A stretch of DNA of 64,000 nucleotides from Ischnura elegans (Eukaryota > Arthropoda > Insecta > Odonata > Coenagrionidae), in NCBI RefSeq assembly GCF_921293095.1, contig NC_060248.1, forward strand, positions 131,762,972-131,826,971, given 5' to 3'. Made by a program: the position numbers and the translations under genes. How positions within the stretch are numbered: the stretch's first letter is position 1; each line of letters opens with the position of its first letter. This document shows positions 6,456 through 64,000 of this stretch, in pieces. The notes below the pieces were generated by a model that saw only the letters and a list, made by a program, of their open reading frames with translations, did not search any database and was not told where the DNA came from.

Positions 6456-6544
6456 GACGAACCGTGAGGTATGTACGCACTCCGAAATATTCGCAGTCAC
6501 CGTCTAAAACTCACACCGCTTAGGCACCTCTAGGGTAGTCATCA

Positions 6545-7050: not shown

Positions 7051-7114
7051 TTCCGAGGGTGGCCACGCCCAACCTGGGACTACCTGCTTCATGTCCCCAC
7101 CAAACGCACTTTAA

Positions 7115-9227: not shown

Positions 9228-9348
9228 ATTGCATGACTTGTAGTGTAGCCTACTAACCTGTGTAAAACTTAATGCATGTTTCTGAATTTCTATTCTATAT
9301 TCTATTTCTAACAACATACATATAGTAGTATAGTTTGTTATTATACGG

Positions 9349-9848: not shown

Positions 9849-9966
9849 GGGACGTTTTTTGGACGGTGTGGTGTGCATGTGGGAGTCCAAATGCATGCTG
9901 GTGATTGATCACCCCCTGCCAAACACCCTAGAGGTGGCTCGCAGGGTATTATGTAGATGTAGATGA

Positions 9967-18371: not shown

Positions 18372-18379
18372 CACCTGAG

Positions 18380-18930
18380 TGCAATCAGATAGTCGCAGTC
18401 AGGTGACCAATGCAAACGACACAAACTGAAGGTGAACAAATGGATGATACACACTATGGAAGGATTAGTATATGCATGCTTCATCTACTTTTTACCCTTT
18501 TAGTGCAGTGGGCTGATATATCAGCTCTTATGTAGTCCATTATTTAATTTGCTATGACTTATTTTTCCACCTTCTCAGGTCATTATCATTATCATTAACG
18601 TCTTGATAAAGACCTGAAAAGGTCGAAACTGGTTGAGTTTTTTCATAAATACTGTACGGAATACTAAAAGGTTTAATTTTGAATCTATAATGTCACCATA
18701 CCGCAAAATGAATTCACAAAAAATTATTTCAAATATATTTATGTATATGTTCGTGATCGTCTATTTCATCACCTGGTGTGGTTCTAAAAGTAAAATTGAG
18801 TAAAAATTGGTCTCGATAGGAGATGGAATCTCTCAACTAGGAAATCCGTAATTATGAGTTCATTTTTAATGAGAAGGAAGTGTTCTTTTAGACTCAAAAT
18901 TGAAGAATGTTTTGGAAAGAAAAAAAGATT
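18380..18930. other. Intergenic, nothing recognised
   Basis: Contains the 17-mer TCAGGTGACCAATGCAA (18399-18415), inverted relative to those at 17424 and 17471. It also holds a short AGGTC..ACCT-type hairpin near 18575-18625 (TTCTCAGGTCATTATC and AAAGACCTGAAAAGG). No gene. Confidence 0.4.
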
Positions 18931-18932
18931 TA

Positions 18933-19083
18933 CCGTATATGTCTGAATATAGTCCCCCTTTTTTTCCAAAAATGCCCATGGTAAAAGTAAAGGGGGGGAC
19001 TATATTCAAACTCATATTTTTACTTTTCCCGAAACTGAAGCCTCAAAATTAGGGGGGGGGGGACTATATTCGGAGAAATACAG
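18933..19083. mobile_element. Small MITE, 151 bp, TA-flanked
   Basis: The left end CCGTATATGTCTGAATATAG and the inverted right end CTGTATTTCTCCGAATATAG are flanked by TA (18931-18932, 19084-19085). AATATAGTCCCCC-type motifs occur at both ends and once more internally, inverted, near 18990-19005. It is non-coding. Confidence 0.75.
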
Positions 19084-19085
19084 TA

Positions 19086-22060
19086 CTTAAGGTATTGAGG
19101 CCGAATTCTACAGGTTAGCTTTGTGGAGGGCATGCGATTCTGAGCGAGCAAGCAGCTGGAGATATGACTAATATGACATGAGGATGATACCTGTGAAACC
19201 CTACAGCTGCCTGTTTTGAACACTATGATTGTAGGATAAAGACCTTATTTTTTGCTACTGCTCAATTAGGAGAGAAAAAAATGTGATCTCGATGCAGGTT
19301 TACAGCACTATTCATAACATCATCTCAGCTAAAATGTCCATCATTTATAAATAATATTTTCTTTACGGGAATAAACTGCCTCACGTTTGTATCCTGACGT
19401 TTCACTCTGCCCTCAACCTTACTGATGAGGGACATGAAAATATCTTCACCCATCGTCAATTAATGTCAATAATTATGGGAACATCGGCAACCGACTCCTT
19501 CTCCAGCATGGTGAGCACGCATATTCCAATGCATTCATATCCCCTTACTGGCCAAGGCCAAGTCCAACACTCCCTCAGTTTTCTTTTTTTCGCCTCTTTA
19601 ATGTTCAAGAGGCGAAATTGCTCAGAAGGACAGAATCCTCCACTTCACAAGCTTCCACATTTGTTTACTTAAATATCATCTTTCGTTCGTTTGCCATCTT
19701 TTGGTCCAAATGAGATGGATTGTTGGAGACCCCCATTCCGTTGCATACAAATTTATGCGTCAAAATTTTTAGTCCAAAAATTTTGATGCAAATTTGACCG
19801 TGGGACACCGGCTTTAGCCCAAACTTGTGATGCAATGTTGCGTTCTGCGGGATAACAGCACCTCTCAGGCGGTACACCATGCGCCAACATGGTTTGCAGC
19901 CAATCGCTGTCCCACAAACGCACCTCACACCCTCGCCTAGTCATACAATGTTGTCACGTGCATATGGAGCACTGAAACGAGCCTGAACCACCAAAACAAG
20001 CCCTTTCTTCGAATCACCTGAACAAAGGATTCTTCCTTTGGGTCCTTCACGCTCGTCGTCCCTCTTTACGGAACTCTTTTGTTCACAAGTGATGTAGGTG
20101 TTTCCCTTTCTTACCTGGCTACATTGTACCTAACTAGACCCTTCTACCTGTCATCGGACGCAACATTTTCTAAAATCTTATGAAATTTCTGAGCTTTGAG
20201 AATTTTCAATATCCTTCAGGATATTTTTCAATTGGTAATTAGGATCCTCAAGACTTATATAGTAAACCTGCTAATTTTCATAGCAATTGGATGAAAAGTT
20301 TGGCTGAGACAAATTTTTTCCCTCTGGAGGTACAAGTACCCCTGGAGACCGCATTCATTGAAAAACTGCAGTTTCGCCCAAACTTCAAATGGTTGTGAAA
20401 AAAAACTAGTGGAGATAGCCAAGAAATATTTTACACTGTTTCATTCCTATATGGAAGGATGAAATTTGCCAAGTTTCATCAAAATTCGAGTCGGTGGGTG
20501 TCATGCCTGGATGAACTGACATGGAATGACCCATCTTGTTCGTACAGACTGTCCCAAGGGTCGTGTGTCATTTTTGACCTCTAATTTTAGTAACTTCCCC
20601 TCGAGCAATATTCTTGAAAATTTGCATACTTATGGGGATAGGTCCTAAGTTTTGTAGAGTGTATGCAAAATTTTACAATTTTGACCTCACAATGTGGGCC
20701 CAAACCAAAATTTTGAATTTGCCTTATGGGGTTTCAATGTTAAAAAATTCGAGAGAGAAAATAGTCTGAATTTCACTGACCAAGATGTCCATTCTTAGGT
20801 TTTCGGACATGAGTAAACCGAAAATAACACTTTTATTTACGAAAATTCAATCGTTGACCCAGTAAGGTCACTGTCAAGGTCATAAGGGTGGCAAAAAGAA
20901 TAGAATACCAACAAAGGTGTCGATCCATGGGTTTTAAATGGTGCTCAACTCATTGGTATTGTCCAAATACTTGTCTTATCCACTATTGGACCTCCAAGGC
21001 TAATACTGAGGTCGAAGGTCATAGAAGTAAACGTCGGGCCATCGTGACAACCAACGTGTTGAACCATAGATTTTAAAGGGTGCTCAAGTCAGTTTTGCAG
21101 TTCATTTATCAGTGTTTTTGATTTTTTGACCTCCAAAGGTCGTAATGGGGTCAAAGGCATGATTTGATATATCAGGGAAACTAATGTCTCCTTGGTCGGG
21201 TCTTCTTGGTGGCCACTCATTTTCATGCAAGCCACCTTACCTGAGCAGCAATGTCACCCATTTGAGGAACTCTTCTGCTGCATGTCTCTTTGGAATTAGT
21301 TCGTTGCTAGTCATAGTGGAAAGAGGCACCATGAAGAGCCTTACTCCCACGATCAGGGCGGATATAATTGAGACGTATTAAACGGAATGTCAGTTATCAT
21401 AACGATTCGTAAAATTTTCTTTGAGCATGGTGTTCACCTTAGAAGAACAGTGGTCCACAGGTTATATGACAAATTTAGGAAGGGAAGTTGTTTCAACGTG
21501 GAACACCTTAAGAAGAGGAATGTTTATAGAGGCTCTGTTTATGGGAAGACCATAATTAAAAGACTTCCAATACCTTTATGGATGAGAATTATTTCTTCAA
21601 TTTCTGAAAGTCTTCATCAAAACTTTTCTCTGAAACTTAGGCTGCATATTGTTCTGAATATGTATGTATGTATTTTGAAAATGCATATGTTTATTCCTTT
21701 CAACTGTATATGGCTGGAATACCTCAAGTTTTGTAAGCATCCTCTTATCTCATGAAATCTTATCTTCTAACCTTATCTTATAAGCTACTAATACCAGACC
21801 CCTAACCTTGAAATAAGTCAAAACCTGGGTCAACAGTATAGTAGTTGGTCATAATTTCTCGTTAATCATTATTTTGTAAATTGTAATTTCTCAAAATACC
21901 ATTCTATTACACTACATGTCTACTAAGACCTAGTAGCTTTTTCTGTTTCATCACACTGATTCAAAATTTATTTCCTGTTTTCTTTTCCTTTAAAATTAAC
22001 CATTGTTATAAAGTGTAATTCAATGTTGTCCGATGCTGACATTATTTGAATTAATTCTTT
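19086..22060. other. Intergenic, degenerate repeats, no supported gene
   Basis: No frame here reads as a known protein. Around 20870-21150 a degenerate direct repeat is visible (GTGTCGATCCATGGGTTTTA with AATGGTGCTCAA, versus GTGTTGAACCATAGATTTTA with AAGGGTGCTCAA). Repeated AAGGTCATA phrases accompany it. The frame 21387-21755 has a vaguely helix-turn-helix-like stretch but is not called. The promoter or an upstream exon of the gene at 22182 may lie here. Confidence 0.45.
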
Positions 22061-22065
22061 CCAGG
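22049..22065 (+). promoter_or_regulatory. Possible 3' splice site upstream of the NACHT gene
   Basis: A pyrimidine tract followed by CAG (TTAATTCTTTCCAG|GATT, ending at 22064) is a good acceptor and precedes the start codon by ~117 bp. If used, the gene has at least one upstream non-coding exon, and 22065 is the first base of its main exon. Transcript evidence is needed to confirm it. Confidence 0.4.
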
Positions 22066-22181
22066 ATTATTGATTACTCGAGAAAGTGATAGGTGGATAA
22101 GGATTTTATGAGCACTGATTTGTAAATGGAGGATGTTGATTTGTGGTCTCGTCTGGAATTTGTTGTGGCAGTCCATTTATC

Positions 22182-25100
22182 ATGGCCTCAGTGAATATAA
22201 TTGAAAAACTAAGATCTGCAGTCAAAGCAAATGGAAAGGAGGAGGTGAAGGAAATATTAATGAGTGATCATGGAACATCGCTAGATCTTGCAGTGTTTGC
22301 TCCTAGTGGAAAGGGGAGCATAATCAATGATGCCATTGAGGAAACTGATGTTGCCATGCTGGCCCTACTTCTTGGCATTCAGTATCCTTCAGACGAATGT
22401 GCATCATTGATTTCAGACTCAAAACGATACCTATTGACCAGTAGGTGTGATTCTGAAGGATTGACACCACTCCTGAAAGCTGTGAAACTTGGCAAACTGG
22501 AAATGGTCTCCTTGCTGTTGTCATGTGGTGCAGAGGTGAATGACTTGTTAGCGAATGGCAGGACAGCTGTGGATCTTTCGAGTGACCCAAAGGTAGTGCG
22601 CGTCTTGTTTGATAATGACTCAAAATTCCCCCGAGGAGAGAGTAAAGTGAAAGACCTTCAAAGTCTCATCTCAGCAGATGGCGACTTGAGGGCACTATTC
22701 CATGAGAGGGATGAAGTTCATGGGTCCACCAAGGGTGAAGGCCTTAGCCCAGACCTGAAGAAAGCCTTTGAGCGAGGAAAGTGGGTTTATTATGTGAACA
22801 GTGAGGGCCACTCTCTTTTGTACACAGCTCTTGCGAATGGTAACTTTGATGCTTGGGCCTACTTGCTGGACCAAGACATGGAGTATGTGTCATCTGATGA
22901 GAAGGAGAAGGAAAAATTGAATGAGGTGATGTGTGAATGTGCTTTAAGGAATCTGCTCGTTCCAATGGAAGGGTGTCATGTGATGAAACTCATGTCCAAA
23001 GCCACTGTTAGGGGGAGTACCAGTTACGGGAAGGATTTGCTGGCCCTTGCCTTTGACTACTTCAAGTACCTGGATGAGAACGAGATCACCAGAACATTGA
23101 TGCAGGTGTTGCAGGACGTCCCTGGTTTGCAGATTGCCTTTGATTTTGGCAGTGCTAGTATCAACAGGATACAAGCCTCCTGCTATGAGGGAGACCATGG
23201 TGCATCAGACTTTGATCGCTGTAAAATAAGCATTGCTGCTCTGGCAAATGAACTCACTGGTATGGCAGAGATAGCTAGCAATATGGCTCACGAAATGTGC
23301 CACTTTGCCATGACACTGGTTTTCAAGAACAGGGGTCTTCCGTACGCATCTGATGATGCAAAAAGTAAAGAGAAATATGACGGAGTGATTGAAGAAGTGA
23401 GACATTTAACTAACTGTGATGAAATAATCCGGAAGGTGTGGAATTATGACAGAAGCCATCATGGAATGGAGCTTATAGTTCGTGTGCCTGAAATGATTGT
23501 GAAGTATGGCAGAAGTCCACAAGATGGCTTCTTTCTTCTGGAAGAGCAGGCCAGATCATTGTTAGACTTTTATCTGGAAGATGTCCAGCCTGTTTTCATG
23601 GAATACATGGATGGAATAATTACTAGTGATAGGATCATAGGAAGGTGGGTGATAGAGCATCAGAAGCTTATATCTCAAGTAGATTGGGTTCGGGTGAATG
23701 ATGACATTGACAAGAAAATTTCTGATTTTGTTGGTAAGCACAATCATCTACAAGTAATTAGATCAACCAATGTGAAGCTGGCTCAGAGCCACCTGACATT
23801 AATGTTCCAGAAACATGGTAAGGTTGCCCCATTCTTTGTCAACTGGTCTCTATACCAAAATTCTCCAGACTTTTTCATAAAGAGCCTCAAGTCCAGGGAC
23901 ATTGAGACTCTGGTAATATCCTGGGATGAAGACAGGCCACCTCAATTTTGTAGGTATCGTGACTGTAGACATCACTTATGCCCTGGTTATGATTTCAGAG
24001 ATTTTAGTGATTGCATTTACATACTTGTAAATTCAAAGTTTCAAGTTCCTAAAAACGTTGCTAATCTTGAATATTTTTGGAGTGATCTGTCTCAAAAAAC
24101 CAAACACAGTGCCCTAGGGAAGGTGGTCCAATTTGGTGGAAAATCAGTGAGACTGGAGTCTTTAATCTCTGTTTCTGTGAGTGGAGGTGATGTTGAGAAT
24201 TTCATGCTGCAGAATTTGGATGTTAACGACATAAGTTTGCTTTTGGAGAATGAGGACATAGCAATGTGCAAACCACCCTCCTTGGTCAATGATATTGGGG
24301 ATAATGTAGTTTTAAAACATCCTGGATGGTTTGTACCCCGAAAACTAACCCAGAAGTATGTGGATTTCTCTGAAGATATGCTTCAGAGATTTCCAAAAGA
24401 TGTTTTCTTTGTGAGCAGTGTGGAACTCACTTATCTTCACAGTCTTGGGATTCATAATTCATTGGTCGAGCAGTGGGTTGGCATTTCCACCGAGAATCCT
24501 GTTCGCTGCTATGTCTTGCATCCATTACCTGAAAATAAGACTATGGAGTCGGTTATTCAGGAAATATCATTAAACCTTAGCACTGTGAGAATGTATAATA
24601 TGTTACATTGCTTGAAATTCAGGCAGGGCATGTTTGCCTATGTTAAATCTGTGAGTGTCAAAAATGACAATGGCGGAGTGCAGTGCCATGCTATGGGTTT
24701 AATGTCTTCAAAGTTAGTGGAGAGTCTTCTTGAACCCTCTGTCTTTGAAAGCATTGATTCATGTTTGATAGCTGATGATCCAGGTACTGGTAAGACCACG
24801 TACCTGCACTTCCTTGCGAGGGAAATGAAGGATTGTCATCCAGAGAAATGGGTTTCCATCATTGATTTAAGTTTAGAAACAAATCAGAAACATCTTCAGG
24901 CCAATGCTAGCAGAGTTTCATTTTCAAAGACAGAGGTGCTGGATCTATTATATGAGATGGTTGGATGTGCTGATTCCACACTTGAGAGAACAGTTTTTGA
25001 GGCATATTCTGAGGCAAAAAGTAACATTGTAGTCATTTTTGATGCATTTGATGAAATCTGTCCAAAGTATAAAGCTGTCGTAACTTCATTAATCAAGAAT

Positions 25101-26453
25101 CTCCGCGGACATAATCAAAATATCAAATTGTTTGTCTCAACTCGACTTCATGAGAAAGATGATCTTGAGGAGGCTTTGGATGTGATATCTTTCCAGTTGA
25201 TCCCATTTAGTGAGGATGACCAAGTGACCTTTCTGAATAAATATTGGAACCAGCTCCTGAATAGCCTTCCATTTCTCGCATGGCAGGTGAAGCTGGAGAA
25301 GTCTATTGAGACCTTTGAGAAATGGGTTGAAAATGACAGTGATGGAGAAATAAAAAAACTAATGTGTGGGATGAAGGAAGTGCTGGCCTGCTCTCAAAAG
25401 GAGCAAAGACTGTTAAAAAAGAGATTCAAGTTCACTCAAGTGGCCAGAAGAGCTGTACTTTGCCATAAAACCTCATTGCATAGACTTGATAGATTCACTG
25501 AGACACCATTGCATATCCAAATGGCTGCTGCCCTCATTTTTGATGACTCATTTGCAATGAACTTGATTATGAACCTAGGGCATCTCTACCAGAGATTCTT
25601 TGACCTAAAGATGAAAATATATGGCAGGGAAAAGGCCGGTGGTTCTGGCAATGTCCAGTCGGAAGACTTCATCAGGCTGGGTCAGGAGAGACTTGCTGAG
25701 ACAATGGAGGAGTTTGCTCTCAAGTTGATGCTGGAAAAAACTTCAACTGAAATGGATAGTGATGAACTGAGAAGAGTTTGTAACATTGGTTTGGTGACCA
25801 GAAAGGGTGAAGAATACCAGTTTATCCACAGGACCTTTGCAGAGTTCTTTTTTGCAAGGAAGATGCTGAAAGATGCTTACAAAGAAAGTATAGCTAAGCT
25901 GTGGCTAAATAGTCTTTTCATCAGTAATCATTTTGAAAGGGTTGTAAGTTTCCTGGAAGATACATTGCGTCTTTTTTCAGTTGGTTTTATCGATTCCAAA
26001 AAGGTTGAAGTGTTTTTAATGTTCAAGAAGGTTCACTTGAACAAATTGGTCATTAGTGATCAATCTACCTGTAGTGGGTTGACAAGCACTCTCCAGAACA
26101 TTATTTGGCATATTGCTATCAACACGCTTCAGTATTTTGCTGACTCTTTTGGAGAAATTGTTGCCAGAGTCTTGATAGGAGAGTCAGAGTGTGGTCTTCG
26201 TAGAAAACCTTGTGGTTCAGCCATGGAAATTGCAGAAAGGCTTTATGGAGACGAAATTACGGATACACTGTTATTTCTTAAATGGAATTTGGAGCGAAAA
26301 TATGCACAAATGAATGCCAGGTTGGATGCCTTTCCTCCCCCCAGTACTTCATGTCGCCATGATTTATTCCTGTATGAAATGAGAAGGAATTCCCAAGATG
26401 AACATGCTCTTGGTAAGGACGATCCATTAAATCTAAACATCTGTTGGTGGTAA
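22182..26453 (+). CDS. Ankyrin / HExxH metallopeptidase-like / NACHT STAND protein (NLR-like)
   Basis: One uninterrupted 1,423-codon frame. ATG at 22182 has an A at -3 and G at +4 and is the first ATG after an in-frame stop at 22137. Domains in order: ankyrin repeats (about residues 50-150 and 200-235, GLTPLLKAVKLGKLEMVSLL); a region with NMAHEMCHFAM containing HExxH at 370-374, with a candidate third ligand Glu about 437 in ELIVRVPEMI; a long linker; NACHT with Walker A DDPGTGKTT (Lys about 871), Walker B VIFDAFDEI (954-958), an FVSTR sensor strand (about 985) and the winged-helix FIHRTFAEFFFA block (about 1214); then ~200 residues without leucine-rich repeats. Inference: a cytoplasmic signal-operated NTPase switch, possibly immune, with a peptidase-like module. 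No signal peptide or membrane segment is evident. The peptidase call rests on HExxH plus context and could be a pseudo-enzyme. Confidence 0.9.
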   Translation: MASVNIIEKLRSAVKANGKEEVKEILMSDHGTSLDLAVFAPSGKGSIINDAIEETDVAMLALLLGIQYPSDECASLISDSKRYLLTSRCDSEGLTPLLKAVKLGKLEMVSLLLSCGAEVNDLLANGRTAVDLSSDPKVVRVLFDNDSKFPRGESKVKDLQSLISADGDLRALFHERDEVHGSTKGEGLSPDLKKAFERGKWVYYVNSEGHSLLYTALANGNFDAWAYLLDQDMEYVSSDEKEKEKLNEVMCECALRNLLVPMEGCHVMKLMSKATVRGSTSYGKDLLALAFDYFKYLDENEITRTLMQVLQDVPGLQIAFDFGSASINRIQASCYEGDHGASDFDRCKISIAALANELTGMAEIASNMAHEMCHFAMTLVFKNRGLPYASDDAKSKEKYDGVIEEVRHLTNCDEIIRKVWNYDRSHHGMELIVRVPEMIVKYGRSPQDGFFLLEEQARSLLDFYLEDVQPVFMEYMDGIITSDRIIGRWVIEHQKLISQVDWVRVNDDIDKKISDFVGKHNHLQVIRSTNVKLAQSHLTLMFQKHGKVAPFFVNWSLYQNSPDFFIKSLKSRDIETLVISWDEDRPPQFCRYRDCRHHLCPGYDFRDFSDCIYILVNSKFQVPKNVANLEYFWSDLSQKTKHSALGKVVQFGGKSVRLESLISVSVSGGDVENFMLQNLDVNDISLLLENEDIAMCKPPSLVNDIGDNVVLKHPGWFVPRKLTQKYVDFSEDMLQRFPKDVFFVSSVELTYLHSLGIHNSLVEQWVGISTENPVRCYVLHPLPENKTMESVIQEISLNLSTVRMYNMLHCLKFRQGMFAYVKSVSVKNDNGGVQCHAMGLMSSKLVESLLEPSVFESIDSCLIADDPGTGKTTYLHFLAREMKDCHPEKWVSIIDLSLETNQKHLQANASRVSFSKTEVLDLLYEMVGCADSTLERTVFEAYSEAKSNIVVIFDAFDEICPKYKAVVTSLIKNLRGHNQNIKLFVSTRLHEKDDLEEALDVISFQLIPFSEDDQVTFLNKYWNQLLNSLPFLAWQVKLEKSIETFEKWVENDSDGEIKKLMCGMKEVLACSQKEQRLLKKRFKFTQVARRAVLCHKTSLHRLDRFTETPLHIQMAAALIFDDSFAMNLIMNLGHLYQRFFDLKMKIYGREKAGGSGNVQSEDFIRLGQERLAETMEEFALKLMLEKTSTEMDSDELRRVCNIGLVTRKGEEYQFIHRTFAEFFFARKMLKDAYKESIAKLWLNSLFISNHFERVVSFLEDTLRLFSVGFIDSKKVEVFLMFKKVHLNKLVISDQSTCSGLTSTLQNIIWHIAINTLQYFADSFGEIVARVLIGESECGLRRKPCGSAMEIAERLYGDEITDTLLFLKWNLERKYAQMNARLDAFPPPSTSCRHDLFLYEMRRNSQDEHALGKDDPLNLNICWW

Positions 26454-26732
26454 TTCCATTCACAACAAGTGTCCAGTGTAGCCACAACTTATCATCTGTT
26501 GTCAACGAATAAGCCTTTTAAGCCGAATAAGTCTTTACTCCGTTCCCTTTTTTTGTCAGCCATTATAACCATTCAACCAAGTTCAACCATTTGAATTTAT
26601 CATTAAATTTCATTTTAATTACTATTATTAATATATTTAGCAAGGACGGTGAATGCAGTGAAATAATAGTCACCGTGATTTGCTCACTATGAACCTTAAG
26701 TACTGCAATGGTAACAAAAAAATATTCCGCAC
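26454..26732. other. 3' flank of the NACHT gene
   Basis: AT-rich and presumably includes the 3' UTR. No canonical AATAAA stands out directly after the stop, but ATTAAA occurs near 26603. No other feature is seen. Confidence 0.35.
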
Positions 26733-27524
26733 ACAGTGAATGTTGGAGTCGTGAGTGGTGGAAGTCAGCTCCATGTGCACACGACTCCTTCCACAATCAT
26801 TTTCCGTACGAGGCTCATCGCACGTTTGGCGGATCAAAGGGAGCACATGGCGCTATTCACTGCTCACCTTTTAGCGCCTCTTGAAAGATTCTCCTGATTC
26901 ATTTTCTGGACATTACTCTAAAGAACCTCACATGACCCTTATCGTAATTCTCTCTCTTGCGTGTTTCATGCATCGTGAAAGAGAAATGATGGAAGATGCT
27001 CATGTAAAAGTTTTTGGCAACGGCAATGTATGAAAATAATACGAGACAAAAATGAACATTTGTTCAAACACAAACAACTAAGATAAATCGATTAAATTAA
27101 CTATGAATTGTTAACATGATCATGTAGTTTCGGAGAGAATATTTTGTTACAACAGAATTTTTAAAATTGCCGTCATCTCTAAGCATAGGAGACAGAATAC
27201 ATTTTCCGTCTTCCATGCAAGATACAACGTATTGGCAGAAATGGTTCCTCAGTTATATCACGTGTTAAACATTGTGACTATGCAATATGTGATTGATTTG
27301 AAATCATTTTTTTCAAATTGTGATCCAGGAAATGTTGCATTTTAAATGGGTGTTCAGAAATCCCCCCTAAACACCACCTTCCCCTCCTCCTCTTTCTTCC
27401 AATCCCCTCCTCCCCCTCCCCTCAACCCAGAAATGCTTTGCTGAGTCGCATTGTGCGAGCGGCTCTCAGGAGTGCTATGAGTGGTGAGGCAGCTTCACAA
27501 AAAGAGTCATTTATGCCATCACCA
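26733..27524 (-). mobile_element. Non-autonomous hAT-like element, inverted second copy
   Basis: Reverse-complement relative of 17489-18371. For example, the segments spanning CGTACGAGGCTCATCGCACG and GAAAGAGAAATGATGGAAGA have inverted counterparts there. The outer end (CCATCACCA, ending 27524) matches the TAGTGATGG terminus of the left copy. The inner end is rearranged or diverged, and no target duplication was found. The pair places the NACHT gene between inverted repeats of about 0.75 kb. Confidence 0.7.
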
Positions 27525-28481: not shown

Positions 28482-29111
28482 GGGTAGTTTCATTCATTAA
28501 AGAAAACGAAAGGTATTGATTGTGATTCGTTACCCACCAGTAGTGTATTCATAATATACAAATTATTTCGTTCTAGAAATACCGGTTTAGACTAATGGCA
28601 ATGTTCAATTTTACCTCATTTGAAAAAGGCCAGATTGGCGCCTATGCGATGCCACTCCACGTGACATCACAGGGACTTAGTTTTTACACGAGAGGATCAG
28701 AGTTTTACATCGTCTGAGGTTACCAATGCATGCATGAGGCACAGAGCTCAGGGAGACATGTCTTAATAATCACACAGTCTGTTTGATAAGGTATTAATAA
28801 ACCTTATTTAAGCCAAGCGCTACCAGCTAGCATGGTACTCGGCTACCTGCTAGCATCCTGCGTCGTAATAGCGCTCAGAGCCTCGCCCCAAGGTCACCTC
28901 ACTTGCGGCAGCGGGAACCAGAACGACGTCACGCGGAGTTTTTCCCGGCATTCATACTTACCCGTCGCGTTTTCGTGCGCTTGAAAATTTTCACTTTTAA
29001 TTTAATCGCGAAAAATAGATATCGTCTTATAAAACTCTAAAAGCGTTAAATACGTACTTCAGGAGTATTAATATTTCGATTTAGGCAATAAAAAATAATA
29101 GGAAACCACCC
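28482..29111. mobile_element. TA-flanked MITE, 630 bp (copy 1), nested in the hAT-like element
   Basis: It starts GGGTAGTTTC and ends GGAAACCACCC, with TA on each side (28480-28481, 29112-29113). A related copy in opposite orientation lies at 49768-50348. There is no coding capacity. It contains CG-rich patches with GACGTCACG, unusual for this AT-rich region. Confidence 0.85.
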
Positions 29112-39178: not shown

Positions 39179-42100
39179 GTAAGTTCACGATGAAGATTAA
39201 TATTCTGAGTCGGAACCATCTAGTTTATGGTCAGAACTTTCTTTATTGTTTTCGTCCTTACCGAGGTCTTTTGATTTTTATCTGTTATATCTATATGTTC
39301 TTTGTACGAAAAATACATGTTCACATGCAAACGGAAATGAAAGTTAATTGTTTGCCTCCGGAAAGGGGTCTACAGGAGCGGACCTAATCCCTCCTCAATA
39401 GTGGCTGTAGATTCCTTTGCTAAACGTGGATAATTTTAACCGTAGTAGTTTCTGTTGCTTTCAGTTTTCGTGGCTTGAATGTAAATGATGCTCCAAGGCG
39501 TTCGGCGCGAACGAGTAACAACGTTAACTACAATGCTGGTGCCGACGTACTCAATAAATATCAAAGTAATTGGAGTGAACTTCATCAGCTAACGGAGGAA
39601 AACTCGAAGAAAGCAGAGGTCATTGATGGGGTCTATATTTTAACATCTTGAATCTCAATTATTTCGTGACAATTTCTTCGGCTCTAACAGTTGTAAACCT
39701 TTCAGGGAATCGATGCTACGATAAAAAGCCTTCACGAAAGCTTCGAGAAACAGTGGGTGGCCGTGGGCCACATATGTGCGTCTATTTCTACAGTCCCTCA
39801 ATTGCTTAATGGAGTGCAGGAGTTAATGGAGCAAATAGGTAATTGACTTCGTTAGAGTTTCTATTTGCAGTATTATGTAATTGTGGATGCGACAAACAAG
39901 ACTTGATTCCTAAGAAGCAAATAATGCATTTAAAGATTTATTTTGAGTAACTTGTGAACGAATATGCCTTCGAAAACATTTTTATCCTCTTCTTCAATGG
40001 CTTGATCATTGTATATCAGGTTGGTGATATTTACACTCCATTCTTTTTTTATATTTGCCTTTGCTAGGGACTCTTCAGACACTATTTGCTGATGTGGAAG
40101 GATCGTTACTAAAGCTGGAAGATATGATTGAAACTCAGGAGTTGCAAGAGAAGCAGCTAGATCATAGATTTCAACTGGCCATGTTTAAAGAAAAGAAGTT
40201 GGGGGAAATTGAACAAGTTAAAGGTAATTTTCATTCTGAATTAATATCTGCATGATTGATGTGAGTGCCAGGTGTAATGTTAAATCACTTTCAGGTCTTG
40301 ATTAGTAGTTAGTGAAATATATTGCTCTGTTAAGTCTTCCTTTGTTGAATAAGCTTTTCATCCCCATTATGTTTGTGATCTATCACTTTCATAACTGTTG
40401 ACAGAAGGGAACATATTTGTTTTTTGGAATTCGTTGGGAATGCGGAGATGGTAGGAAGCCTTAAGAACTTTTATGGTGTTATTTTAATGGTTATGGTGTT
40501 TATGGTAGTCACGAAGATTTAACCTGTATCAATTTTGTGAATGTAATTTTTGGTATATTATTTTTGTCTTTTATTATCTCACTTTCATTCTGATTCAAAA
40601 AACGACAACAGTCCGATCATCGAATGATCAAGTACACATAAACAACAAAACAAAAGAACACAAATCGCGTGAATGCGAAACATTGCTAATGTGACCAACA
40701 AACACACAGGAACCCTTGTATTTAACACCTCTCCATGTTGGTCACACAAAATACGATTTAAAAAAATTCAAATTAATAATCAATGTTATAGTTCACTTAA
40801 GCCTTTTGTTATAGTTCACTTAAGCATTTTACACCAATATTTTCTGACTTAGAGTTTACATGCATCAGAATTATGAAATTATTTTTGATCAGTTCTGTAA
40901 CATGATGATATTTGATGTCTATTTGTTTGGATTTGTCTCGGGTACAAAGCAATTCTCAGAAGCAGCAGTGGCTCCCTGGTTGTCAGCATAGACGGTAATA
41001 GGTTTTGCTACCAGATGTTTGAGCCCAATGTCTTCAAGTAATCCACAGATCCAGGTGACCTCCCTTTACACATCACTTAGGGCTATGTACTCTGCTCCCA
41101 TGGTAGACAGACTCACAGATGTCTGCTTCTTACTACTCCAGCTAACTGCTCCACCTGATAGGGATAGACAAAAACCTGTAGTAGGTCTTCTGTCAGTATT
41201 TTTATTTGCCCCATGTGCATCCACATAAACTTCTAGTTGATGACCATTTCTCTTGTAGACTAATTTCAGATTTTTGGTGCCTTTCAGATATCTGTAAAGG
41301 GTTTTTACTTCATTCCAGTCCTTTCTTGATGGGTTTTGGTTCTTCTGACAAAGTTTGTTTACAGCAAAAGCTATGTCAGGTCTCGAGTTGCTGGATAAAT
41401 GTAATAGAGAGCCAGTTCCTGCTCTGTATAATTTTGGGTTGAATGGGCAGACAGCATGTTGCTTTTCTTGATCCTGTGGCAATGAAAGTTGGACCATAAC
41501 TTCTGTAGTATTTTGCAAGTGGAAATGTTTCAGTCTTTCCTCAATGTACATTTCATGATCCAGGTACACAGCTCCATCATGATCCCTTGCAACCCTCATG
41601 GAAAGAATATTCTTCACCAATTTCAAGTCGTCTCCCAACGGAGTATGCTCCACCAAACCCCTTCTTATAAAGCTTCTGATGGCCACTTTTGTTCCAGTGA
41701 GATAACAATCATCCATGCAAATACACATGCAAGAATCATACCCTGATCCTTTCAAGTTCATGCTTTCCATAGTCTTGTTAAGGTCCTCCTTCCAATTTTT
41801 GACAGATTGATGTAGACCATTGGTGCTCCATTTTAATTTGCATATGTAAGAGTTCGGATTCTTCACTTCCAAATGAGGTGGTTGTTCCATGAACACCTCT
41901 TCTTTAAGTTTACTACTAAAATAAGCTGCATTAACATCTACATGGTGTATTTCCTAACTCTTCTTAGTGGCAACAGCAATCATACATCTAAGTTTAGTCC
42001 TTTCAACCATTTAACTGTACCTAAGTGTTGTAAAAATCTTAATTTTCTTTCTGAAATTTTTTTAATTTTATTCTTGTGTTAGCAAGGCATATGTTGTCTT

Positions 42101-45100
42101 TCTCATAATTTTGCAGGTTCCGCTTCAGCTCCACTACTTCCTTCTTTGTAATGCAAAGATATTCAATCAGAGAACTGTTCTCATTTTCCATATCTCGTGC
42201 ATGCCTCTGTATCATTTCGCTTTGCTGCTTCAGAGTTTCCGGTTCTTCCTTAAGACTTCCAATTACAGAGATTGTTGAGGGTGATATAATTGTAATAATT
42301 CTTTGCATCAGCGAATGCTTGTTCATGGTTTTGAATGAGTGTTTCAATTTGTTGATGTTTTCGCTCTTCAACCTCTGTTAGTTCCATTCGATGAATAAGT
42401 AATAACTCATCTTGCAAGGCAGTAAGATCTCACTCAGCCTTGTCTTCAATTCTCTTAGTCTCCTTGAGGAATTTTTCTTGCAACTCTACTATCTCCTCAC
42501 CATGCTTCTCGTGGAATGTTTGCAACTGTTCCTGATGATCTTTTTCCTTTTCTTCTAACTTTTCCTTCAGTTTCTGTATGTCTCTCCCGAGACAGCTTAA
42601 GGGACACCATATTTTCAGCCTTAAGTTCTGCCAAGTTATTTTGATGCTCATAGAGGAGATGCTTCATCTGCTGCCTGTTCATTTCAGAGTGATGAGCCTC
42701 TTCTTCCATGTCACGATCTTTATTTCGAAATTTGGCCTTAGTTTCTTCCAATTCCTTTCTTGTAATATCCTAGAAAGATTTTAACATATCTCCTTGAATT
42801 TGAAAGAGGCTTTGCTCTTCTCTTTCCCTCTCCAATTCTTCCCTCAGCCGATAACAATGAGCCTCAAGTTGCTTGCGGTTCATTTCATTGGTAGCTATCC
42901 CATTGGCTGCTTTTATTTCCTCTTAAGGTGTTAGGTGGTCTCTTGCTGTGTTACAGAACCTAGTTCTCTTAACTAATGTGTTCACACCTGCCCTAAAAAC
43001 CTTTGCCTCAATGGTTTTGAATGATGCTTTCCTTACCATGCCTTTCCTTTTTCGTGGTCTTTCTTCTTCAAATTCACTGTCAGTTGCATTACTTGAGCTA
43101 GAGTCTGATTCCATGTCTGCAGATCTTGCTGTTCTTTTTGGTGATTGGTACTTCCTACCCTTATTATGATATGTATTTCTTTCCTCAAAATACGGGCATT
43201 CGTGAGCAGTATGCCCTGCCTCTTTGCATGCAAAGCATACAAACCTTCTTTCATTAAAATTAGCATACTTATCATCGTTTCTCCCAGAATAGTCCCTCTA
43301 GCCTCCCCTCAAATCATTACTCTGTCCTCCCATGGATCACTTCTCCAGCCTCTCCTGCTTCCAAAATTGATACTTCTATCAAGTCTAGAAGCTAGAGCAG
43401 TGATGTCACTGGAATCTTCATTAGTTTTATGCAAGGACTTGTGGCTCTTCCTTCTTGCCTCTTTGGCCATTAATCTAGCCATCACTTCCTCTAGATCAAT
43501 GTCTTCCCCTTGGTCTATTGTGGTGATTAGTACTTCATATTTCTCTATTGGGAGACCATCGTCGATAAATCTTGCGATTGTTTTCTCGTCAAAATTAGCC
43601 TTGGGTGCCTTCAATCTCCTGTGTAAATTGAAGAAAGAATTTGCAAAATATTCTTCCATATGTTCATCCTCTTCTTTTTTAATGGAAATCGGTTCTGGAA
43701 GTGATAGGGTTTGATTGATGGGTCCAGCCTTAGTACATATATAATTTTTCTAATTTCTGCCACATAAATTCCGCGACACTAACATCGCCAACAAAATCTA
43801 TTGTCTTAGAATTTAAGGTCAATAATATGAGGGACACTGCCCTATCATTCTTCTTTATCTCTTCTGATGTGAATGTATCAATTTCATCAGCATCACCTTC
43901 TTGCAAATAACCTGGGGAGACAGCTTCCCAACATCTTCTTTGACACAATATTGCTTTAGTGGTCAGCGACCATGAAAAGTAATTCGTTTTATTCAACTTC
44001 ACGTACTTTCGTACTTTCGCTTTGTCCTCCGCCATTTCAATTCATTTGGATTTATCCGCTTTGGCATCGCTCGCTTCAACTTATTACTTTTTCCGGCTTT
44101 ACCCCTTTTTCTTTCGCTTTACTTACTAATTCTTTCTTTCTTCCAAGCACTTTGTCTCATAGTCCGTTAGATTATTCATGTCTTGTATTATCTCACTTTC
44201 ATAGACTCAAAATACGACAACAAACCGTTCATCGAATAATCGAGTAAATATAAACAACAAAACAAAAGAAGAACACAAATCGCGTGAATGCAAAACATTA
44301 CCAGTGTGATCAACACACACGAAAAACCCTTGTAAATTTTCTACAATTTTATGGTACACAATGCCCAGGTTTGTACCACAAGCACCAGGTCACTTAATAT
44401 TCTGTTTCGGACCTGATCTCTGAGGGAATCTGTTCCTATTTTATGAATGTAATAATCATTTTGATTGGGTGCCACTGTAAAATTTTAATGGATATGTGAT
44501 TTAGTGTTTCCATTTATTTTTTTTGACAATAGTGTTTTTCAGTATTTAATGGTCACCATTTTCTGAATTTCTTGCTCCCCAAATGTCTGTTTTGATGAAT
44601 TGGCGCGAGACTTTTTGGATTGAGGTCCATGCAATTCACTCCTGGGGAAATATTTGTGAGGAAATATGGGAAAAATTTGTGCTCAAGCCCGAATCACACA
44701 ATCATTTTTTCCTTCGAGGGACACATCCAGTGATTGCTCTGATGACGGCTGAAAAAAATGTCATTGCACACGTTCATTTTCCCCAATGGCTCCAAGGATG
44801 GGAATCACATCCCTTTTTCCATCACTTGCCATGCCCCTTTTTCCATTGTTGAAACCATCACTGGCACTGCCCTTCGGCCAATCAGGACGAATGGCTGCTC
44901 ACAGTGATTGAAGTGCCACACTTGGCTTTTAATTGAATTAAAGTTGTAAATAGGGAAAGTGATGGAATGGGAAAAGGGCAGTGGGAATGTCCGTGTGATT
45001 CAGAAAATGATGGCTCGTTAATCTATCACTCTTTTGGTCCCTGTAAACCAATCGCTAGGGCTATAATATTGAGGGATGGAAAAAATGATTATCTGATCCA

Positions 45101-48100
45101 GGCTTTGTCTGACCTTGACTTTCGTACTATTCACAATTTCATACGTTCCAAATTGACACCTTTTACTAGACTTTCATACGCCTAGTCTGCACTTTTGGAC
45201 GCTTGTCTGTAATTAATTTTTTGAAATGCCCACGATGTATTTTGTGCATTGCAACATTCAAGTGTTTCATATGGCAGTATGTATGGACAATACGATGTCT
45301 AATGTGTGTTCTCTTTGTGTTCAAACAGAAGAGTTGGTGCGCAATCACGCAGAGAAGGTTCGAGACCATGAGCAGCGACGCCAGCAGGTGTTGAAGGAAA
45401 GGCAGGAGGCATTTGGAAAAGTGTTTGAGGAAGATATGCAGCAGTACAAGACATCAGGAAGGATTCCCAGTAAGACACCAGAGTTGTATAATTGAAACAG
45501 TTAAATGCTCAGTTATTGTGGAGTTGGAGTTAGAGATATGTCGTAGGGAAAATGTAAATAGTTGTTAACAAATTAGAAATTAAAGGTTGTGAATTTTGGG
45601 GCGGTTTGTAGGGCATGCTTGTTTTGTCTGTCTTGCTCTTTGTCCTCTTTTGTCATTATCATGACTGAATACTTCTGTGTCTGCTCATTGTGTACTTTCT
45701 CACTCTCATTACCTCCTCCGTCCATCCCTACGTTGTGCTGTGTTGCTCACTCACTTGTTGGGTTTTCCCAGAATACTTCTCCTTGAGCATTTTTTAACCT
45801 GTTTTTGCTCCTCCTGGGATTCCAGTTACCGCAACTGCCCAAATCTGAGATGACACTTATTAATCCCTTCAAGACTGCACAGGGATATTAGATTTGTCTT
45901 TCTCTTGACTCAAGGATCATCTTGATTTGTGTAAAGGCTGACCCTGAGTTATGGAAAACTTAGAGCATTTCATAGTTAGGGGCCCTGAAGGCTCCATATG
46001 AGCATGCATTAAATTCATTCATTTGGTAAAAATTTGAATTGTTGAAAGGTATGGCAACTGTTATAAAAATTTTTTGCAATCAAATTTTGGTTAAATCATT
46101 ATAAGAAATTCCAATGTTCATCGAACAATGGTGCAATGTGAGATAGCCAGTTCAAAGTAGATAGTGTAGTCCCAATTATGTATGTGCTAGTCATTAAAAT
46201 TTGAGTCATGAACAAATTCGGAAATAATGGTATGCTTCTATTGTGGAGTATCTAATGAGAGGATTACGTTGGAATTGTGTTGAACTAAGATTGATGCAAG
46301 TTCGGTAATCTCATCCCATTAACATTTGTATTCTAAAATCCTTCAGCCTTTTCCTCTGTGATCAATTTTTAATACTGGATCCATTTTGTTATTGTTTCTG
46401 TATGTGACTTTCAACTGTTTTACTTCCTGTAAGCTTTGAGACATCGGTAAATATGCACTTTTGGGAACAATCAGATAGGATTAGATTTAGTGAAAAATTT
46501 TATTTTTCTCAGTACATTTACATATTGATCGTAAAAATGAAAGTTTGGAGATTGAAAGGTTGTGGGATATTTCTGGTTATATTGAGCATTTAAGGGCCAA
46601 ATATTTGAAAAATTAGTTGTTATTCCATGCTGCCGGGCATTTATGTGTCTCGTTGCCAAGGCAGAGGTATAGCGTCTGATTTCAGTTGTTCCATACAGTT
46701 CTTCCCTTCTTCCAAAAGAAATATATGCTCTACAATATGATTTCATATTTGAGGAAGGACTTGAGCGTTATTAATACGTTTTCGTGGTAGCAGTCAGAAC
46801 AGGCAAAAAAGTTGAGTGCAAGAAATGATCTAAAAGATTGTGTACCTGAGTGTCCCCGAAAGTGCAAACACAGTGTACTCCAGCATGAATAACTCATGTG
46901 GCTTTTGTGCATAATTAAATTATTGATTGTCACTTGTGAAATCTATTGGAATATTGTTACTAAAATGTTTTGATTGTGCAGTGATATAGAAATAATTTGC
47001 AGTTTTCTCTCAGGTTTAATCTGTTGTGACACTTGGTCATCACGCGTAAATGTTTTTATTTGATCCCTCGAAAATTGGATAATAATTTTTATGCTAGATT
47101 TGTATGTTGGGGCAGTCTACTGTGCTCACTGCTTTGTTTTAGGTCTGAACTTAACGATAACAATAAGTTGGGAATTACGTGATGTTTAGAGGAGTTGAGT
47201 AGGGATTGAGGTATTTCCTTTTAGTGTTGAATGGATGGTTTTAATAGTCCCTTCAGAAATTGAAATGCCGCAATGACTTAATGGTGCTGTTTAATATCAG
47301 TGAGTTAGGAAAAGCTGATTGTAGACTCCTAAAGTGCTTGGCAAGATGAGTGATTTTCACTTGATCGATTCATAGACACATGCTATTCCTGCAAACAAAT
47401 TATTCTCATGAGTAATACGTATCTTTTAGCTGTGAAGCTCAAATAAGAAGCAGCTTGATTGTGCTGAGTTATCTTGCGCAATGGGTTGCCATGGTGGTAA
47501 TGCATATTTTTATCTGGCATATGGTGGTGAGTTATGCTTTGGGTTCTTGGGCAATACTTAATTTTTAGGTTGTTTGCACCCCATTGTAAAAAAATATGCT
47601 GATGCATTAATCATGCCAACTGGAATCGTTGAGCTTAAATGAAGGCTTTTAATTAGCTCTGTTAATAGTGCATTAGTTTGGAAGTTTCATTTCACACAAA
47701 ATATTTGTGGATATAAGTGATCGATGGGTCATCTTTCAGTTGGACAACTAAAGGCCGTTGCTTGTTTTTCGTCCATAACTCTCCATGCTGCGCTCACTTT
47801 TCTTGCCATTTGTTGCCTTAATGTGTTGTTCTCTCCCCTATATTCTTTTTCTCTTAGCATTGTGTTTTCTAGTTCACTAGATTCCATATATACGTTATTT
47901 GACTGATTGTCTCTCAGTTTATCTGCCAGTCAATTCTGTCGCCAATCTACCCATACTTTCCCAACATGTCAACAATGAGAGGAAATTTCACTCGGTACCA
48001 ATGGAATTTTTGTTTTTATTTTTTTAACTTTTATTTACATTTTCTGCGTATTTTCAAAAGAAATGACATAATGTGAGGAATATTATTAATTTATTATTAA

Positions 48101-51100
48101 ACATTACCTAATTAAAGTAAAATTGTGCAAAAAATAAGGTTTTTGTATGAATATTTCACTCTTTTGGAACGTAACCCCTAATTAGGATGGAACTAAATGG
48201 TTCGATTTTTGTGCACGTTTTCAGGAACAAATAGTGTGCGAAAGCCAGGGACAGCCTGTAGAATGTCTATTTCAAGGGCAGGTTGCGTAAGCACTTAGTG
48301 GTTTGGGTGTCAGAATTCAAAGAATTTACCTCTTCATTGCTGCTGCGAAGGTCAGTTTGAGTTAAGGGTGGAAGTATTGGGCTAAGATCAAATGTTGTTG
48401 TATGTCAATGACCTTATAAGACTTAACATTAGAAGCATTAGATTCCACTTATTCTCCCTACTTTGGCTTCAGATTGTGATAACTGGAACATGTGGATTTG
48501 TTTTAAAATACTTACTGGCTGGTGTGTACTGTAATTAGGTGTGTGCAGTGAAAAGGTGATGCATATTTGCTCAGCCAATGTATAAAAATCGCTATTTAAA
48601 TCTCCCTCAAATTGATGAAGAATTATCGGTGTGCACCAATCATCATTTCCAATGATTTCTTAGATCGTCTTTTGTAATTTCTTACATTGCCCATGTTCCG
48701 CTCTTAGCAAGGTGGCTTGTTAGTGGCAAGTCGGTTGAGATAATCTGCCCGTTTTCAGGCGCCTTGCCAGCATTGGTATTAATAGCAGTTTTGTCAACAT
48801 TTGAAGGTGTAGTTCACCGTAGGCCTACTCCATGGAATGCATGACATTTCTGTCGGCAGATGAATGGTGTCGTATGGCCAAGGTTGGATTACGTGTAAAT
48901 AGATAAGTGTGGCAAGGCTTTTTGTGTCGTACAACTGGGAAAGTGGTGTAACTGAAGGTGGTACAATTGAGGGTGACTTCCCGTAGAAAGGCAGGCATTT
49001 ACAGTGGGCGAATCCATGTTCATTGTGCAACTGGGAGAGTGGTACAATGGAAGGTCATTTGATGGGAGGTTCCACTGTAAATGAGACTACTGATGCAGCC
49101 ATGTGTTAAAACGTACGTAGTTGGTTGGCTGCCAAAATTGTAAGTTAACATTTAATTATGGTTTCAGGGAGTAAATCATTAATGAGTTAGGATGGCTATG
49201 GAAAAATATAGTTTTGAAGGATGTTTGATGTGGTAGAATGGCTTTGTTGATGAGGAATAGTTGTAGTTGTCCAGTGTAGTAGTCATAAGTGGGCTCCACT
49301 GTAGGGGTGGCGAAAAAGTTTGGAGGAATAAATTTAGAAAGCCATTCATTCTTTCTCAAATTGTTAAGAAATGGTAGTTGTAGTTGATAAGATACAATTA
49401 ATGCAGATAAAGTATTGTATGGAAATCAAGACTAAAACAACAAAAGTGATCATGTACAGTTTATTTGATTGGGCATCTCCACTATTGCCTGGGGTAGTCT
49501 ACTCCCTACTTCATTTTCTCGTTTATCAGAATTTCATATTTTTATTGTTATTCTAAGAGTATACCTATGTTTTTGAGGAATGCAAGTTGGAATGAAGACG
49601 TGTAGATTTGTTTGGATTCTGGGGTTTTGGATTTTTTATTGGTATGCAACTTGGATGAAGTCCAGGTTCACAGTGATGATGGTTAAAAAAAACCTGATAG
49701 AATATTCTGCACAGGAATGCAATGGACAGTAGATGAAAGCAATAGAAGATGATATGCATCATTAATAGGGTGGTTTCCTATTATTTTTTTATTGCCTAAA
49801 TCGAAAGATATTGCTCCTGGAGTACGAGTTTCACACTTTTAGATTTTTAAATGACGATATCTATTTTTTGCAATTAAACGAAAAGTGAAAAATTTCAAGC
49901 GCGCAAAAACACGACGGCTAAGTAGGAATAATGGGAAAAAGTCCGTGTGACGTATTTCTGAGTACCCTGCTAGCTGGTAGCGTTTGGCTTAAATAAGGAT
50001 TATTATACCCCTATCAAACGAAGGAAACTTTCCGAACTTAGGTGTTTTTAATGTGTGATTATTAAGAGATGTTTCCCTGAGCTCTGTGCCTCATGCATGC
50101 ATTGGTATTCTCAGACGATGTAAAACTCCTATCTACTCGTATAGAAACTAGGTCCCTGTGACGTCATGTAGAGCGGAATCGCATTGGCGCCAATCTGGCC
50201 TTGTTCAAATGAGGTTAAAATTGACCGTTGCCATTTGTCTAAACTGGGATTTCTAAAACCAAATAATTTGTATATTATGAATACACTAACGGTGGGTAAG
50301 GAATCGCAAATCATTGCATTTCGATTTCTTTGATGGAGGAAACTACCCTATTGAATGATTGTTTGTTGAAGTGGGATGTTAGTATGTTTATGTGAATGTG
50401 AACAAAACTCAACACATTTTTCATTTTATCTGTCACAGTAATCGGTGATGGTTGGCATCTGCTAGGTTTCGTGCTAGCGGTTTTTGATGGGCAGGCAGCA
50501 AATATTTGTGCAAAGTTCTTGAATGGAAGATAGAGTGGTTCCATTGAAGGAAAATTTTCACCGGGTGCTTATTAAAAGAGTTTCTAGGAGTGTGGAGTCT
50601 CGGAAATGCTTTATTAAAGTTACGGTGGTGAAAACTCATCTATCCCTTGCAATATTGAATAGCTACCTGTATAGTTAATTGTATGGGTGCCATTATGAGC
50701 TTTTTCAAATGAATAAATGGTAACGGTGCTCACTTTGTGGAATTCCATTAGTTATATTAGTAACTTTTACAATCCATTATGGCTAAAGAAAAAACTTGCG
50801 CAATCTGGATTTCAATGCTGGAGCATCATCATCATTGGGTTCTATATTTCAAGTGTAAAGTTTTTTCTTTGACCTTAGTGGATTGTAGAAGATACCATTA
50901 TAATATTTTTCAAATGAGTTTCAGTAGGCATTTGATTTTCATTTAATCCAGGATTTCTTAATTTAAATCACTTGTGCATGACTCGGGGTGGAATGCAAGT
51001 CTCAGCTTACGAATTCTGATTTCTTTGACGAGGGAAGCAATCACTCACATCAGCTTGGTTGTTTTGTGCGCTCTTTACAAGTTCAGTTGTGAATTATTAT

Positions 51101-60283: not shown

Positions 60284-60411
60284 TACAAGTCAAATGTTAA
60301 TTCTAACAAGTCAAATGTTAATTCTAACAAGTCAAATGTTAATTCTAACAAGTCAAATGTTAATTCTAACAAGTCAAATGTTAATTCTAACAAGTCAAAT
60401 GTTAATTCTAA
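60284..60411 (+). repeat. 21-bp tandem repeat, six copies
   Basis: The unit ACAAGTCAAATGTTAATTCTA is repeated about six times with essentially no variation. It directly adjoins the 3' side of the minus-strand RT fragment. Identity between units indicates recent expansion. Confidence 0.95.
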
Positions 60412-63402: not shown

Positions 63403-64000
63403 TTAAACAATGGTGATGGAAAAAGTCTTGCCATCTCTATTCACCGCAGAATGATTGCCCAAGTTCTCCCCAAATAGTGAATCTTCAGTGTATATTATAT
63501 TAATACAGTCACTGCAAGTCACAGATGTCATCACAGACTTGAGGACTGTATTACACAATTCCAACCTCTGCATTTCACCGGAAATTGGGTTGATATCATC
63601 GGGGTTGTCAGTTGTTTCAAAATTTAATTCAATGTTCAATTCCTCATCCTGAGGAACTTCAACAGGAATTTGCTGCACGAGCTCCTCTAAATCTGATAAA
63701 AAAGTGTCATCAACTAGTTGACAATTTCCACCTTTTCTTACGACCTTGGGAGTTCCGTGCAGCATGGATGTCTTAATCGAGGACGCAAATTGCTGAGTGG
63801 TAGGGTTACTATTGCATCCACTGTGGAACCTTATGCTCCTAAACAAATTCTCTAGTGGATCTTGATTCGGCCTCCTTGTTTCCAGTTTTTTCAACCTCTC
63901 CTTTTTTAGCCTTCCCCACAGCAATTTCACAGCCCTAATAGTGGACATCCATCCGTCCTGGGACCTAGGTCTTATTACTTTTATGATGCTTGGCAGGCCA
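63403..64000 (-). pseudogene. P-element / THAP9-like transposase C-terminus (partial, runs off window)
   Basis: Open from the window edge to a stop at 63403. SQDGWMSTIRAVKLLWGRL, then TRRPNQDPLENLFRSIR and NPTTQQFASSIKT, match the conserved C-terminal block of P-element and THAP9-type transposases (DG...I.....W, then TRRLNQDPLENFF..IR, then NPT..QF). The remainder is acidic and less conserved. The THAP finger and catalytic core would lie beyond 64000. It could be an intact C-terminal exon of a domesticated THAP9-like gene or a transposon copy. The window cannot decide, so pseudogene is a tentative label. Confidence 0.7.

Follow-up and report, generated by a model that had tools for sequence, protein, structure and literature searches.

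A stretch of 64,000 nucleotides (the whole of the DNA analysed, in the following called the window) contains a retrotransposon of the Copia type that is bounded by long terminal repeats (LTRs) and in whose centre a piece of the host gene DRC4 (GAS8) has taken the place of retrotransposon sequence. The element is located on the minus strand between positions 40565 and 44340; it starts with the 5' LTR and gag, continues with the DRC4 piece, reverse transcriptase (RT) and RNase H, and ends with a polypurine stretch and the 3' LTR (Table 1). The explanation that we regard as quite likely is LTR-mediated retroposition, that is, a template switch of the RT onto a co-packaged DRC4 messenger RNA (mRNA) and the subsequent integration of the chimera as one unit. 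The element is a fresh case of a known kind of event rather than a new principle.

The assignment of the central block to DRC4 is based on domain and structure databases. The GAS domain PF13851 was recognised above the Pfam cut-off in one of the three open pieces of the block (E 8.4e-11), and the other two pieces harbor no Pfam family above cut-off. Taken alone, the GAS-domain piece finds DRC4 and trypanin chains in the PDB (four sequences, E 6.8e-6 to 7.5e-4). A read-through of the block, which combines three frames of the minus strand and has an X in place of each stop as well as of the first frame change, exhibits a collinear match with residues 18-324 of PDB chain 8j07_0 (E 7.6e-57), and it also matches eight other DRC4/trypanin-type sequences at E 1e-5. 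The homology covers the N-terminal and GAS regions of the protein; the first codons and the last third of the coding sequence are missing. Gaps in the alignment range from 1 to 9 residues, and an intron-sized insertion, as judged against the DRC4 protein, is absent. This uninterrupted block contrasts with the surrounding host gene, three exons of which measure about 133-156 bp as read by eye.

The block has the same orientation as the element, and its best bounds are located at about 42907-42922 and 42045-42060, corresponding to a length of 0.86-0.89 kb. Its 3' side lacks a poly(A) tail (the longest A-run is 7), and a comparison of its borders (42880-42990 vs. 41990-42110) revealed no exact direct repeat that exceeds 7 bp. 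A comparison of four DRC4 pieces with the 11 loci of Copia relatives introduced below (tblastn, E 0.01) yielded no match, so those loci do not carry the block as a regular part of Copia. An earlier note on this DNA had described about 880 bp of intronless DRC4-like coiled-coil sequence in element orientation, with neither poly(A) nor a target duplication of its own, and the Pfam and PDB results, the short A-run and the repeat comparison support this description. The span of 42036-42922 given there had to be corrected slightly, to about 42907-42922 on the 5' side and about 42045-42060 on the 3' side. The same note had stated that a poly(A) tail together with a duplication of the type made by long interspersed nuclear elements (LINEs) around the DRC4 part would speak against a joint capture; a check of the DRC4 borders for this combination did not find it.

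The two LTRs, which are about 162 and 163 bp long, start with TGT and end with ACA. Their alignment (40565-40723 vs. 44179-44340) shows identity in 136 of 156 aligned columns and a Kimura two-parameter distance of 0.142; the differences comprise 20 substitutions (12 transitions, 8 transversions) plus nine gap columns. The 5-bp duplication ATTTT is perfect at both ends of the element, and equal 5-mers at the same spacing occur at only 78 of 60,200 window positions (0.13%). Two of the features indicative of Copia membership, an LTR pair of the TG...CA type and a 5-bp target-site duplication, are present. A near-perfect tandem duplication of 23 bp (40784-40830) is located within the element near the 3' LTR.

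Table 1. Features of the Copia/DRC4 element and its insertion site (positions in the window)
Feature	Positions	Strand	Basis and remarks
Intron of weakly dysbindin-like host gene, element inside in antisense	40224-45328	plus	GT/AG exon borders read by eye
Target-site duplication ATTTT, left copy	40560-40564		read from sequence
3' LTR	40565-40727	minus	sense start TGTTAAAT, sense end AAGACA; inner end read from sequence
Putative polypurine tract, sense GGAGAGG	40728-40734	minus	abuts 3' LTR; read from sequence, function inferred
Copia RT (from about profile position 50) and RNase H, broken	40851-42053	minus	RVT_2; tblastn of Copia relatives; alignment A1
3' junction DRC4/Copia	42045-42060	minus	QKE (42045-42053) fits the DRC4 and the Copia profile in register
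DRC4/GAS8 coiled-coil complementary DNA piece	42045-42922, core 42060-42907	minus	PF13851; PDB DRC4 chains; two stops, two frame changes
5' junction Copia/DRC4	42905-42928	minus	same reading frame on both sides; TAA 42923-42925 between
Probable remnant of protease active-site motif (11 residues vs. D-S-G-A-x-x-H)	42926-42956	minus	motif of relatives L003, L006, L007, L010
Copia-type gag with CCHC zinc knuckle	42926-44041	minus	Retrotran_gag_2, zf-CCHC; two frame changes, no stop in frames used
5' LTR	44179-44340	minus	sense start TGTAGA, sense end AAGACA; LTR alignment
Target-site duplication ATTTT, right copy	44341-44345		read from sequence

On the 5' side of DRC4, Retrotran_gag_2 was found above the curated Pfam cut-off in the open piece 43309-43749 (E 4.2e-8) and below the 27-bit cut-off in the piece 43730-44041 (E 8.3e-6, 25.8 bits); the piece that comes next contains the CCHC zinc knuckle (zf-CCHC, E 1.9e-4, above cut-off). 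The 3' open piece on the opposite side of DRC4 is recognised by RVT_2 (E 3.9e-14), and the match starts at profile position 55 of 244 once the upstream piece in the same frame is added (E 1.4e-15). A tblastn search with 29 open pieces of Copia relatives (E 1e-3) matched the RT and RNase H region between 42061 and about 40851; none of these pieces matches the element upstream of 42061, not even its gag. An RT query of the PDB returned 0 matches. The earlier note had reported matching LTRs, a perfect ATTTT duplication, gag on the 5' side and late RT/RNase H on the 3' side, and each of these elements is confirmed: the first two by the LTR alignment and the 5-mer check, gag by Retrotran_gag_2 and zf-CCHC, and the RT by RVT_2 and the tblastn search.

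In the Copia order of protease, integrase, RT and RNase H (PR-IN-RT-RH), integrase precedes RT; here it is absent and DRC4 occupies its place. The failure of the relatives' pieces upstream of 42061 proves by itself nothing about integrase, because they miss the gag of this element too. The Pfam scan revealed no integrase family among the open pieces of the element. The conservation of integrase, this negative scan and the filling of the space by DRC4 together indicate that integrase, the first ~50 RT residues and the protease, apart from a probable scrap, are missing. According to the spacing in three relatives (L006, L007, L010), the missing segment amounts to about 1.7-1.9 kb. The element is an incomplete deletion derivative of Copia. 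Its 5' Copia part probably extends into the first protease residues, as suggested by a candidate motif (Table 1) that ranks 25 of 127,966 positions in a six-column scan with half of the motif.

Both junctions are probably in frame. Column scores based on a four-row DRC4 profile document a DRC4 fit down to about 42060 and a Copia fit from 42053 downwards, with the residues QKE fitting both. In frame 1 the end of DRC4 is followed by FQKENxDFYNT, which resembles the corresponding block of ten relatives (e.g., TQKEGIDYEET), and a frame change after FYNT leads into a stretch of 11 residues in register with the relatives. An 11-column Copia scan assigns the 3' junction a score of 18.7 in frame 1 (rank 6 of 127,936) and of -9.1 in frame 2. 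The shared QKE in register would represent the trace that is expected of a switch guided by microsimilarity, here at the protein level only.

All three coding parts, gag, DRC4 and RT, are broken, and none of them looks maintained. Over its 1.1 kb the gag part accumulated two frame changes but no stop, and the RT/RNase H part exhibits six disablements in 1.2 kb (four stops, two frame changes) as well as a 12-residue deletion shortly before the catalytic DD. Four disablements are found in the 0.88 kb of DRC4 (two stops, two frame changes), which with the loss of both ends leaves no functional open reading frame. The TAA at the 5' border (42923-42925) was counted in none of the parts. The element is a long-inserted, dead Copia-type element.

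A single template-switch event would explain the sense orientation of DRC4, the lack of introns, poly(A) and an own target duplication, the cut at both ends of the gene, the replacement of a Copia segment and the presence of just one target-site duplication. According to this scenario, Copia RNA and spliced DRC4 mRNA would have been packaged together. In the course of minus-strand synthesis the RT would first have copied the 3' part of Copia (RNase H, late RT), then have switched to the DRC4 mRNA where the two RNAs share a short stretch, followed it for about 0.87 kb and returned to the Copia RNA at the start of protease. Switching during minus-strand synthesis requires that DRC4 lies in the sense of the element, as it does. 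The chimeric complementary DNA (cDNA) with its two LTRs may have integrated as one unit into the intron of the dysbindin-like gene, Gag and Pol may have been supplied by intact sister elements, and the chimera would have decayed after its integration. The capture could date from this replication cycle or from an earlier one in the same lineage. Three features of an LTR-mediated retrocopy are found, namely, an intron-free mRNA copy, one LTR pair with one target-site duplication, and the lack of LINE hallmarks on the captured part. The proposal of the earlier note, a one-unit capture by template switching, agrees with the single duplication, with a collinear, intron-free DRC4 piece in sense that is truncated at both ends and lacks poly(A), with the absence of Copia sequence where DRC4 sits and with the protein-level microsimilarity at the 3' junction; the mechanism itself, i.e. 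co-packaging, two jumps and help in trans, is what we infer from them.

Break repair after integration is the chief rival of LTR-mediated retroposition. It assumes that Copia integrated first and that a later double-strand break was repaired with free DRC4 cDNA as filler, accompanied by the loss of protease, integrase and early RT. Such a repair likewise yields intron-free DRC4 without poly(A) or a duplication of its own, and the absence of an exact repeat longer than 7 bp at the borders is compatible with it. However, it predicts random orientation and frame, whereas DRC4 shares the orientation of the element and apparently keeps the frame across both borders (a chance of about 1 in 18 for both together), and it requires a source of cDNA plus a coincident deletion of about 1.7-1.9 kb. 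We consider this scenario rather unlikely. The insertion of a LINE-made processed DRC4 pseudogene into an older, internally deleted Copia copy with subsequent trimming is very unlikely, even if LINE-type RTs do occur in the window (RVT_1, 1091-2662 and 8144-8884): poly(A) and an exact flanking duplication of more than 7 bp are lacking, and Copia sequence is missing at the position of DRC4. Moreover, LINE insertions generally retain their 3' end at the expense of the 5' end, but this block has lost the final third of the coding sequence. Origin as a fragment of an intron-containing gene was likewise rejected. Finally, an own low-complexity coiled coil of the element might resemble DRC4 by chance, and two of the three DRC4 pieces indeed match nothing but unrelated families below cut-off (Pfam E 0.0015-0.096). 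Yet all nine PDB matches at E 1e-5 are named DRC4, trypanin, T-lymphocyte triggering factor or growth-arrest-specific protein, the best of them (E 7.6e-57) is collinear, the GAS domain exceeds its curated cut-off, and 0 of 4 pieces match Copia loci. Chance similarity is in practice refuted and has next to no probability.

Several observations weigh against LTR-mediated retroposition or blur its traces. The gag part is less disabled than DRC4 (2 vs. 4), albeit in small numbers. The short piece at the protease end matches no Pfam family, which together with the rank of the half-motif (25 of 127,966) led us to drop a sharp protease claim, and the 32-residue frame-1 piece at the 3' junction matches no Pfam family either. 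Five other window positions outscore this junction in the 11-column scan, one of which (13649-13681) is itself a Copia RT relic. A tblastn search with relative L004 extends the RT match to 42061 in frame 2 and not in frame 1, making the exact 3' junction uncertain. The microsimilarity pertains to the 3' side and to the protein level, and the loss of introns was judged from the alignment with the DRC4 protein.

The element resides in a 5.1-kb host intron, which would measure about 1.3 kb without it; the GT and AG borders of this intron are intact. The joined host exons match PF04440 below cut-off (E 0.0077), and no dysbindin chain was found with them in the PDB, where the best match (E 0.049) is another protein. 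The name dysbindin is our tentative assumption, prompted by the weak Pfam match.

The 11 Copia relatives used for comparison (L001-L011) comprise two records labelled as plasmids (L001, L002) and nine prokaryote contigs (L003-L011), all of them with Copia sequence. The 29 tblastn pieces were drawn from their loci with the exception of L002, which is a near twin of L001. Both plasmid records (L001, NZ_CP115454.1; L002, NZ_CP115302.1) have a size of 4.6 and 5.2 kb, respectively, are labelled as Streptomycetaceae plasmids from rhizosphere soil and encode Copia pol; they probably represent DNA of plants or other eukaryotes in bacterial assemblies. Copia RT is present in the nine prokaryote contigs as well. 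A scan with RT alone detected one stretch fitting the pattern in viral contigs and 26 in genome contigs, none of which was confirmed. With the three-row alignment A1, 0 of 34 stretches were confirmed in viral contigs and 9 of 66 in genome contigs. The plasmid search returned two records, the phage search no match, PHROGs 0 families for two proteins and Rfam no match at the gathering threshold; ARAGORN found none.

Further features were noted elsewhere in the window. An inverted-repeat pair (28520-29070 and 49809-50309; 82-89% complementary), whose arms are about 21 kb apart, encloses the Copia/DRC4 element. A second, distinct Copia RT/RNase H relic is located on the minus strand (11810-13893) and split between about 12472 and 13340 by an open frame on the plus strand (12299-12961) that is LINE-like by eye but has no Pfam match at 1e-3. 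The segments 1-1869, 2702-2842 and 6544-9965 contain LINE-type copies in inverted orientation, and the 100% complementarity of the arms 627-1745 and 8230-9348 suggests that they were duplicated or converted recently or reflect an assembly effect. Two inverted repeats, each about 755 bp long and 89% identical (17491-27522), enclose an intron-free open frame of 1437 amino acids (22140-26453) that encodes ankyrin repeats and a NACHT domain; the whole may be a large terminal-inverted-repeat element with an NLR-like gene as cargo. An IS1595/ISXO2-type transposase on the plus strand (3347-4429), which is interrupted by one stop, shows a DDE domain in its second open piece (E 1.7e-19), and we assume that its eukaryotic relatives go by the name Merlin. 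The minus strand contains a TNP-like RNase H domain (63403-63999, E 2.2e-10) that we take to be P-element-like. A perfect 21-bp tandem array with six copies spans 60285-60411. The spliced genes and the elements lead us to regard the window as eukaryotic.

A close parallel to the Copia/DRC4 element is the LTR-mediated retroposition described for animals (Tan et al. 2016, summarised in PMC5408686), with chance packaging of mRNAs, switching at microsimilarities and intron-free copies of a limited part of an mRNA within LTR elements. The present element differs from the cases outlined there in its Copia type, in the double switch that replaces the segment from protease to early RT, and in its donor DRC4. 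Maize Bs1 also harbors host gene pieces inside an LTR element (PMC13317346, PMC5408686), but it combines pieces of three plant genes into a new chimeric gene, whereas here a single gene of an animal-like host was captured and has decayed. Host genes within full-length LTR elements have been counted in two plants as well, 672 in rice and 1,343 in sorghum (PMC3726574), a set whose abstract does not state the mRNA origin of individual captures. In Triticeae, similar outer LTRs together with a 5-bp target-site duplication are taken as a sign of a composite that was made prior to integration by template switching (PMC1950507); two retrotransposon RNAs were joined there, in contrast to a host mRNA here. 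An earlier report of a Copia/DRC4 chimera was not found in the literature searched, whose coverage mostly leaves out subscription papers.

A testis-expressed ciliary gene had been proposed as a natural donor. This is documented for Drosophila, where DRC4 (Gas8) shows testis expression and its knock-down makes males less fertile (PMC6367277), although not for the host species; the Drosophila expression makes a germ-line supply of DRC4 mRNA reasonable. Two further readings are highly improbable. One of them would be the founding of a mobile chimeric family, in which an originally in-frame fusion of Gag, protease start, DRC4 residues 18 to ~320 of 478 (the N-terminal and central coiled coil) and RT would be replicated in trans, spread and bring a piece of an axonemal protein into virus-like particles. 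Alternatively, the intron transcript, which runs antisense to DRC4, might feed small RNAs with an effect on the parental DRC4 gene, a reading for which the W-linked retrocopies acting on Masculinizer in Plutella provide a model (PMC9674220).

The Copia/DRC4 element represents a compact and well-bounded capture of host mRNA, of the animal type, in an LTR element, and the event can be read from a single locus with both junctions, orientation, target-site duplication and decay. It fits the view that the particles of LTR elements package and copy host mRNAs, and a gene of the sperm axoneme as donor fits a capture in the male germ line. If other copies share the same junctions, they would document an element family that moves with a host gene piece, a step resembling the capture of genes by retroviruses.

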